Of a stretch of 47,531 bases of DNA, positions 44,922 through 47,531 are shown in pieces. The translations under genes and the position numbers were made by a program. A model generated the notes under the pieces. It saw only the letters and a list, made by a program, of their open reading frames with translations, did no database searches and had not been told where the DNA came from. Source of the DNA: Pseudomonadota bacterium (GTDB lineage: Bacteria > Desulfobacterota > S145-22); assembly GCA_015493505.1 (NCBI GenBank), contig WGDA01000051.1:1-47531 (forward strand), in the 5' to 3' direction. Every line of letters begins with the position of its first letter. Positions within the stretch are counted from its first letter, which is position 1.

Positions 44922-44962
44922 CCCTTATGGGTAATTGTGGATGAATGATGATGGAGGTACGC

Positions 44963-45535
44963 GTGAAAATGGATGGAACTGGAGAGGGTGGGGCGCTTCT
45001 GATGCAAGTGGCGCGCCGTTACGTGGCCCTGGAGAAAGCCATCCGGGAAGACATTGACCGGTTTGTGGGGCCGGTCTGCGCTCAGTGCAAGCGGGTTTGC
45101 TGCAAAGCGAGCTATTGCCGGAATACCCTGCTGAACCCCTGGTATCACTATCTGTTTGAACAATTTGGAGACGCTATTCCTCTCCCGTGGGAGCGGCGAG
45201 ACCCTCCGCCCGGCCTTGGTCCAAACGGCTGTCTGATACGCGCGGGGCGATATGCCTATTGCTCCGCTTACAACTGCAAAGCGGTTCGAGTCTCTTTCGA
45301 ATCAGAAAGGGCCTTTAAAGCGTTCCAAGAGCTGTCGGATCTCCTGAAGGATGTTGGGCTGGGTTTTGCCGGCAAAAGGCACCTGACTGATGTGCGTTCA
45401 TGGGATGAAATCACCCTGTCACGTCTCGAAAGGCTGGATAAAAAGATCAAGGAGGGAATGGAGCGTTTTTCCGAACTCCATTCCCTCCTCTGTATGGTGA
45501 AACCGGGTGATCTCTTTACCCGGATCGTTTTTTAA
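44963..45535 (+). CDS. Cysteine-rich cytoplasmic protein, unknown function
   Basis: Not recognised. The 190-residue protein has a cysteine cluster near the N-terminus (CAQCKRVCCKASYC, about 38-51) and more cysteines at CLIRAGRYAYCSAYNC (about 91-106). This suggests a zinc- or iron-sulfur-binding site, loosely like YkgJ-type CxxCxxxCC proteins. The C-terminal third is a charged helix. Three ATGs stand in a row at 44945-44953, but the third is part of ATGGAGG, a ribosome site 5 nt before the GTG at 44963, chosen here (ATG 44969 also possible). It converges on the selenoprotein gene. Confidence 0.7.
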   Translation: MKMDGTGEGGALLMQVARRYVALEKAIREDIDRFVGPVCAQCKRVCCKASYCRNTLLNPWYHYLFEQFGDAIPLPWERRDPPPGLGPNGCLIRAGRYAYCSAYNCKAVRVSFESERAFKAFQELSDLLKDVGLGFAGKRHLTDVRSWDEITLSRLERLDKKIKEGMERFSELHSLLCMVKPGDLFTRIVF

Positions 45536-45543
45536 AGATTATC

Positions 45544-45858
45544 TCAGATACTGCACGTCCCCGTGAAGAGATCCTGCTCCGACCAGACAGGGGTGATGGA
45601 AAACCCCGGCCGGAATCCCTCTTCGTTGTAATCAACTTTAATTCCTTTCAGGTATTTCCTGATCGCCTTATCAATCAAAAAGGTTACTCCCTGAATCTCG
45701 TAAACCTCGTCCGTCTCTTTTGGCTCATCCAGAGCCAATCCAAAGGCCGGGCCCGATCACCCGCCTGGGGACATATACACCCGTAACGGTGAATCCATAT
45801 TATTTTTTTTCAGGTAATCCTTGATCATTTCGATGGCTTTGTCTGTGACTTCAAGCAT
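45544..45858 (-). CDS. HesB/IscA-like selenoprotein, UGA-encoded Sec34
   Basis: Relative of A-type iron-sulfur carrier proteins (HesB-like selenoprotein family). The frame from ATG 45858, with AGGAGGAG about 5 nt upstream, runs to an in-frame TGA at 45759-45757 (codon 34) and continues to a stop at 45546-45544, 104 residues in all. Sequence around the TGA is MSPGG-U-SGPAFGLALDEP. That is the place where IscA has its first cluster-binding cysteine followed by SG. A 7-bp hairpin with a G-containing loop lies 18 nt downstream of the TGA, as expected for a bacterial SECIS. The C-terminus has one cysteine (TGTCSI) rather than CGCG. Without Sec decoding this would look like a 33-codon fragment followed by a separate 64-codon frame. 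Confidence 0.88.
45720..45738 (-). promoter_or_regulatory. Bacterial SECIS-like hairpin
   Basis: On the minus strand TTGGCTC (45738-45732), loop TGGAT (45731-45727) and GAGCCAA (45726-45720): a perfect 7-bp stem with a 5-nt loop whose second base is G. The loop begins 25 nt after the UGA, inside the 16-37 nt window known for bacterial SECIS elements. It lies within the coding frame. Confidence 0.75.
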
Positions 45859-45887
45859 CTAACTCCTCCTTTTTAGTAAGTGTTGCT

Positions 45888-45915
45888 AATATAATTATAT
45901 TTCTGAGTTTGTCAA
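45888..45915 (-). promoter_or_regulatory. Promoter of the HesB-like selenoprotein gene
   Basis: On the minus strand TTGACA (45915-45910), 16-bp spacer, TATATT (45893-45888). The leader is about 23 nt. TAGCAACA follows the -10 as in the lpdA promoter. Confidence 0.65.
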
Positions 45916-46149: not shown

Positions 46150-47531
46150 TTATGGCGCGTTCACCGCCGCGACAGGCAAGGACAGGCGTTTTTCAACCAT
46201 GTCGATAATCGGCACGGGAAACGATTTGTCTTTCAGCAGCGTGTTCACGAGTGACTGGGGATATGACCTGTAACGCAGCTTCACGATGACGCGTACCTCT
46301 TTTCGTATCCCCTTCGGGACGAGGAGGGTGTAGTTCGCGATTGCCAATCCTTTAGGCGGAATCGTGTGGTTCCACAGAAAATGATCGATCTCCCAAGGCT
46401 TGAGGGTGTGCTGTCCATTCTTGTCCACGGCATAAGCCCCGAACAGGGTGGCTCCCTGCTCGATGTCTCCGTTGTCCGTCAGTTCCCCCGAGTGATAAAA
46501 GACCCTTCCTTCCGGGTCAGAGACCCGCACGTCCAGCCACATCTGCCTCAGCCAGGGCAGAGAGGTCGGGAGATTATGTCCCGCCGCCACGTTACGGACC
46601 TTGACCTTGATCTTTAACACCTGCCCGGGGGTTACCACCGCGTCGGATACCTCGACCTCCAGGGATGCGGCTGTTTGCAACCGGTGCATCATTTCCCTGG
46701 CGTGATCCTGAAAACCGTCCTGGCGGGCCATCGCCACATTGCCCCCCAGGAACCAGTGGGGGTAAAAGGGTGTCCTTTCCGGTGTCAGGTCGGACGCGGG
46801 GCCGGAGATCACGGGCGGTTTCAGGGTACGGGCGGCTTCTACCGCCTTGTCTACCGGCATCATGTGGCAATCCTGGCACTGGATTCCCTTTCTCGCGTAA
46901 ACGGAATGCTTCCACTCATCATAGGTCCGTTCGAGAGGAATGTTGCCGTGAAAGGACTGGTGGCAGTTGGCGCAGACCTTTGACGTGACGTGAAGAGAGG
47001 ACCAGACTCCCTGGTGAATCTTCGAGGGGCAGGTTTCGTACGGCCCACGTTTCACCTTGCCAGGGTTCATGGTAAACGAGCCATTCCCAGGTTCTCCGTT
47101 TATCCCTTCGGCCGCTTCATCTCGGGACATGACGTGACACGCGTCACACTGGACCCCAAAGGTGGACAGCAGATCGGTATCTTCGGAAAAGATACCTTCC
47201 ACGTTTGTGACGTCCCCGGTTATCAGGCCTATGGGCGTGTGACATCCGATACAGAACTTATCGATTTTGCCGCCTGTTTCTTCTGAGCCCATGGCCACAA
47301 AGGCGCGCCAGATGGGATCGGTAAAGGCTGCCGCGTGCATGGAGCCTTTCCACTGTTCGTAAATCTGTTTGTGGCAGACACCGCATTCAGGCGCCCCGGT
47401 AAAGTCATCGAGTGACGCGGGTCCCGGTCCCCCCAGGCGTGTCAGCAGCGGGAAGAACGGAAATTCCGGATGCAGGTTTTCCGGAGGAGACGGGGGTTGA
47501 GTGGCCGGATTTGGCTTTTCAGGTTGGGCCG
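46150..47531 (-). CDS. Multiheme c-type cytochrome (5' end beyond window)
   Basis: The frame is open to the window edge, so the N-terminus is missing. At least 460 residues are present. Five CxxCH heme sites are visible: CGVCH (just upstream of an internal Met at 47340), CIGCH, CDACH, CANCH and CQDCH. This gives a cytochrome c554/NrfA-NapC-like heme region. About 200 residues without heme sites follow (from LEVEVSDAVVTPGQVLKIKVKV), with a beta-sandwich character. A periplasmic or outer-surface electron carrier is likely. The proline-rich stretch near the edge (PNPATQPPSPPENLHPE) looks like a linker after a signal or anchor. The ATG at 47340 is internal, not the start. Confidence 0.88.
   Translation of the reverse strand, partial: AQPEKPNPATQPPSPPENLHPEFPFFPLLTRLGGPGPASLDDFTGAPECGVCHKQIYEQWKGSMHAAAFTDPIWRAFVAMGSEETGGKIDKFCIGCHTPIGLITGDVTNVEGIFSEDTDLLSTFGVQCDACHVMSRDEAAEGINGEPGNGSFTMNPGKVKRGPYETCPSKIHQGVWSSLHVTSKVCANCHQSFHGNIPLERTYDEWKHSVYARKGIQCQDCHMMPVDKAVEAARTLKPPVISGPASDLTPERTPFYPHWFLGGNVAMARQDGFQDHAREMMHRLQTAASLEVEVSDAVVTPGQVLKIKVKVRNVAAGHNLPTSLPWLRQMWLDVRVSDPEGRVFYHSGELTDNGDIEQGATLFGAYAVDKNGQHTLKPWEIDHFLWNHTIPPKGLAIANYTLLVPKGIRKEVRVIVKLRYRSYPQSLVNTLLKDKSFPVPIIDMVEKRLSLPVAAVNAP

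Follow-up and report, generated by a model that had tools for sequence, protein, structure and literature searches.

A predicted HesB/IscA-like selenoprotein gene with an in-frame UGA and a single-cysteine tail in an uncultivated lineage of Desulfobacterota

The gene and its flanking signals

The window, by which we mean the whole 47,531-nucleotide stretch analyzed (contig WGDA01000051.1 of assembly GCA_015493505.1), carries a HesB/IscA-like selenoprotein gene at 45544..45858 on the minus strand; with TGA translated as selenocysteine (Sec), its product scores above the cut-offs of NF038090, TIGR01911 and PF01521. The gene runs from an ATG through 104 codons, with an in-frame TGA at codon 34, to a closing TGA (ATG and 32 further sense codons, TGA, 70 sense codons, TGA), and translation of minus-strand positions 45858..45547 gives MLEVTDKAIEMIKDYLKKNNMDSPLRVYMSPGG-U-SGPAFGLALDEPKETDEVYEIQGVTFLIDKAIRKYLKGIKVDYNEEGFRPGFSITPVWSEQDLFTGTCSI, in which codon 34 (45757..45759, minus) is the single in-frame TGA. 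A first-pass annotation, made from the letters alone, had proposed a real gene here that is read through this TGA, and both that reading and its coordinates are borne out; it had not given the strand, which is minus. A plus-strand reading of 45544..45858 was rejected, there being no such protein there.

The signals upstream are those that the first-pass annotation had described as a good ribosome site and an own promoter. The ribosome-binding site AAGGAGGAG (45863..45871, minus) lies 4 nt before the ATG, and GGAG-type sites precede nearly all complete relatives of the gene; a sigma-70-like promoter, TTGACA-16-TATATT (45888..45915, minus; 11/12 match), has hexamers that align at the same place, without any change, in both of the closest relatives. 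Downstream, a long hairpin (45450..45489, minus; z -7.09) is followed by a T-rich run at about 45449..45440. Two relatives retain its stem and T-run, the alignment showing paired changes, and stem and T-run together probably end the selenoprotein transcript; a simple terminator scanner did not list the hairpin.

The convergent neighbor (44945..45535, plus) encodes a Cys-rich protein of 196 aa that matches no Pfam or NCBIfam family; its synteny extends to two relatives, G001 and G005, where it again lies convergent. Positions 45440-45489 appear to serve at once as the 3' coding end of this gene and as the terminator on the other strand. Three genomes of the group conserve the Cys-rich gene beside a gene of the auxin-efflux-carrier type. 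On the other side of the selenoprotein gene, a 396-aa ORF (46150-47340, minus) has weak matches to multihaem c-type cytochromes and reaches 32.5 of the 250 bits of the ExtKL (seleno)protein model. As a clue to function we found no conserved neighborhood that is general across the HesB-like family, only local synteny within the window's own group.

Conservation across the UGA codon

Standard gene calling would end this gene at codon 34, and if the UGA were a true stop the locus would hold a 33-residue peptide, whether as a decayed gene (pseudogene) or through a sequencing error. A comparison set of 142 distinct sequences, made up of relatives in species genomes together with loci sampled widely within the phylum, argues against this: codon 34 is TGA in 112 of them and Cys (TGC or TGT) in the other 30, and among the 15 relatives in species genomes it is TGA in 14 and Cys in one fragment. 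Over all 104 residues the window protein shares 81% and 78% identity with its two nearest relatives, in keeping with the earlier claim that sequence is conserved on either side of the TGA. Changes after the TGA fall mostly at third codon positions (by codon position, 9/7/37 against G001, 12/8/22 against G005 and 13/7/39 between G001 and G005), a sign of purifying selection beyond the supposed stop; the L010 and L011 copies of the gene are the same sequences as those in G005 and G001. As read from the alignment, conservation through the TGA to the stop is far beyond chance. Close homologues with a genuine stop and no conservation beyond it, which the first-pass annotation had named as grounds for doubt, were not seen in the set, in which all Sec-form homologues have TGA with conserved sequence downstream.

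A separate question is where translation ends, since the frame stays open past the second TGA (45544..45546, minus) for four further codons up to a TAA. Were both TGAs Sec codons, the protein would finish in a ...CSI-U-DNL tail; that continuation is not conserved, and this longer reading is highly improbable. Because both close relatives have TAA at the aligned codon, we take the second TGA to be the true stop.

A bacterial SECIS hairpin within the coding sequence

With the U of the UGA as base 1, a hairpin of the bacterial SECIS type, UUGGCUC-UGGAU-GAGCCAA (45720..45738, minus), starts at base 22. Its stem is 7 bp long, its loop UGGAU starts 25 nt after the UGA, and its folding energy is about -10.1 to -10.2 kcal/mol (z -3.97). 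The published rule for bacterial SECIS elements calls for a loop of 3-9 nt, a stem of 4-16 bp, a G in the first two loop positions, a spacing of 16-37 nt and an energy of at most -7.5 kcal/mol (PMC13188914), and the window hairpin agrees with every part of it. The hairpin is at the same time coding sequence, TTG GCT CTG GAT GAG CCA A.., specifying L41 A42 L43 D44 E45 P46 K47, and codon choice can therefore be compared between Sec and Cys forms of the same protein.

This comparison is a clean demonstration of the SECIS of the HesB-like family at the level of codons. A stem of at least 5 bp is formed in 97.3% of the Sec forms, against 11.6% of synonymous-codon shuffles of them; for the Cys forms the corresponding values are 3.3% (1/30) and 0.7%. 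The wobble bases of the 112 Sec forms are held to those that pairing in the stem demands: GCT or GTT stands at codon 42 in 107 and CTG at codon 43 in 110, and the third base of codon 45 is G with Ala42 and A with Val42. Position 2 of codon 42 and position 3 of codon 45 are thereby paired in 112/112 (C-G in 93, U-A in 19), and in two sequences where Gly (GGA) replaces Glu45, the next pair is restored by a U-to-C change. The codon 42/codon 45 pair shows four joint changes on the tree; given so few independent events, we place the weight on the contrast in codon choice between Sec and Cys forms. Codon choice and covariation together rule out a plain stop at codon 34, the probability of which we regard as negligible. 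Simple minimum-free-energy z-scores for 48-61 nt around the UGA are weak (-0.8 to -1.4), and it is the localized stem test that is decisive; in an Rfam scan of the locus, tRNA alone passes.

One Cys form (L136, in G205; codon TGT), the sole such case, still holds a 5-bp SECIS stem and is likely, judging from its sequence, to have changed from Sec to Cys recently and to have kept its SECIS as a fossil. A fossil SECIS after a Sec-to-Cys change was reported earlier for another HesB-like protein (PMC1794560).

The selenocysteine machinery of the host

The first-pass annotation had implied that the host makes selenocysteine and had suggested a search for selA, selB, selC and selD; all four are present. 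The window genome (99% complete, 4.1% contamination) encodes a tRNA-Sec with anticodon UCA, SelA (622 bits), SelB (360 bits) and SelD (377 bits), on four different contigs, none of them the window's, so that an absence of machinery gives no ground for reading the UGA as a stop. The SelD gene (G000:C104:8988-9914, L034) has an in-frame TGA of its own and is probably itself a selenoprotein gene.

A contaminant source of the Sec genes was considered and is not supported, because tRNA-Sec is found in all five same-family relatives searched (G001-G005), including the two nearest carriers of the gene, and SelA in four of the five. SelA and SelB were not found in G001, a member of the same genus in 520 contigs that carries the gene and has tRNA-Sec, most likely because that genome is incomplete; SelB was also not found in G003.

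With a UGA, a SECIS, SelA, SelB, SelD and tRNA-Sec in place, the ribosome should therefore insert Sec at codon 34. We propose that SelB and the hairpin decode UGA 34 as selenocysteine and that translation would end at the second UGA, a decoding step that the comparative data strongly support. That 45858..45544 encodes a translated selenoprotein of the HesB-like family is, on the evidence of its sequence, almost certain, and pipelines that halt at UGA miss this gene, which encodes the only A-type-fold protein found in its genome.

Family membership and predicted fold

The read-through product scores 117.4 bits with NCBIfam NF038090 (IscA_HesB_Se; cut-off 85), 71.4 bits with TIGR01911 (HesB_rel_seleno; cut-off 66.35) and 46 bits with Pfam PF01521 (cut-off 26.3). 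The alignment with TIGR01911-type proteins that had been suggested for the 104-residue product is thus passed, and NF038090 is passed more clearly; these scores, with the SECIS, support the identity first proposed. The equivalog cut-offs of the classical A-type carriers are missed (IscA 56.8 of 150.6, ErpA 53 of 117, SufA 42.9 of 136.2).

Sec34 aligns with the first cluster-ligand Cys of IscA, and with the Cys of the IscA-fold proteins AQ_1857 and HI1723, bearing out the claim that the UGA falls at the cluster-binding Cys position of IscA/HesB. The protein also has U34-S-G-P, an instance of UxGP, the motif of HesB-like selenoproteins (PMC13188914). For an AF2 model (pLDDT 82.9) that draws on 15 window and locus sequences, Foldseek gives a match to E. 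coli IscA (1s98) with E 4.6e-7, probability 1.00 and TM 0.76-0.81, and further matches to the [2Fe-2S] form 1x0g and to 2d2a; residues 99-104, the tail that includes Cys102, have pLDDT under 50.

The first-pass annotation had called HesB-like selenoproteins known but sparsely studied. This holds as regards function and does not hold as regards their catalogue: 11 were counted in 2006, with several anaerobic deltaproteobacteria listed (PMC1794560), and in our sample of the same phylum 168/395 genomes exceed the NF038090 cut-off. The family has been known for some two decades and the window protein is a new member of it; what is new here is that an uncultivated lineage belongs to the family, that covariation proves the SECIS and that the lineage has a single-Cys tail specific to it.

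A single-cysteine tail, absent carriers and tandem pairs

Only three of the 142 sequences, the window protein and two family relatives, have a single Cys in the tail (TGTCSI, SGTCSI or TGTCRI), the remaining 139 having two or more; the window protein therefore has one Sec and one Cys, Cys102, in all. The IscA-type set of three Cys ligands, of which the second and third form a C-terminal CxC, is not found in it.

No PF01521 protein besides the selenoprotein was found in the window genome, and none at all was found in G002 (same genus, 95% complete) or in G003 (same family, 94% complete). Because these two genomes appear to lack an A-type carrier, the selenoprotein would not be essential, and it would be dispensable in the group, as far as gene content tells, provided that G002 and G003 are not merely missing the gene. 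The neighbor gene is kept in G004 (78% complete), where the best tblastn hit (E 0.15) falls short of a convincing hesB remnant; searches of G002 and G003 did not recover the neighbor gene, and an intact empty site was found in none of the three.

Elsewhere in the phylum, 21 genomes carry Sec and Cys forms as head-to-tail neighbors on one strand, mostly with the Sec form first (L103-L114, L120, L123-L129 and L133), and the SECIS stem is kept in the Sec copies only. Such a tandem is possibly a selenium-dependent isoform pair. In one family yedE (TIGR04112) starts about 2-2.5 kb from the pair (L123, L125, L126, L127 and L129), a short yedF-like gene lies near the pair at L120, L126 and L127, and a full YedF (TIGR03527) is encoded nearby at L177. 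YedE is a putative selenium transporter, and yedE and yedF have been linked to selenium metabolism (PMC5322559); this proximity in one family is the only clue to function that gene context offers.

Possible roles of the selenoprotein

In the mechanism that we propose, the 104-aa product would fold like IscA, with Sec34 at the position of the first cluster-ligand Cys, and Sec34 and Cys102 would most likely provide a selenolate/thiolate site at which iron or an Fe-S cluster is bound between protomers. The protein would then act as an accessory, and not an essential, A-type carrier. We give about even chances to a metal or Fe-S site being its main role; loss of the usual CxC-type tail weakens the case for a plain Fe-S carrier.

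Within the same framework, Sec34 and Cys102 could instead be a redox-active Se-S pair, forming a selenenylsulphide to reduce a substrate or to sense the redox state. The window lineage has no such residues beyond one Sec and one Cys, and a 2026 review deems most uncharacterized selenoproteins likely redox proteins (PMC13188914), but the fold match is to IscA, including its [2Fe-2S] form, and most homologues retain at least two Cys in the tail, in line with the needs of a metal site. We regard a redox role as a real possibility, somewhat short of probable.

The tandem pairs near yedE and yedF homologues, seen in several genomes of one family, would suit a protein that handles selenium or a soft metal, in storage, delivery or sensing, and has neither an Fe-S nor a redox function. 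That linkage, however, is confined to the one family, with varying neighbors elsewhere, and no yedE- or yedF-type gene flanks the window copy, which makes such a role unlikely.

Returning to the metal or Fe-S site and the redox pair, it is conceivable, though we rather doubt it, that the window lineage has a reduced form of the family that is no Fe-S carrier and keeps a two-residue Se-S redox or metal site. If this is true, an A-type fold is in use without a three-Cys site, as the sole A-type-fold protein of its genome. The single-Cys lineage and the Sec/Cys tandem pairs could help to settle the role of HesB-like selenoproteins.

Comparison with known systems

The window protein resembles the HesB-like family (TIGR01911/NF038090) in having Sec at the first ligand position, UxGP, the LALDEP stretch and an in-frame SECIS; it differs in its tail, TGTCSI with a single Cys, where the Cys residues of the other 139 sequences usually have CxC or CxxC spacing. 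With IscA, SufA and ErpA it shares the A-type carrier fold (1s98, 2d2a) and the aligned ligand position, but it has Sec in place of Cys, is without the C-terminal CxC and scores below their equivalog cut-offs. The HesB-like selenoprotein of Methanococcus maripaludis, found by mutagenesis and 75Se labelling, belongs to the same family, and an unpublished remark has it that nitrogen fixation is unimpaired in the disruption mutant (PMC11097638); its host, unlike that of the window protein, is archaeal, and its SECIS is of a different type.
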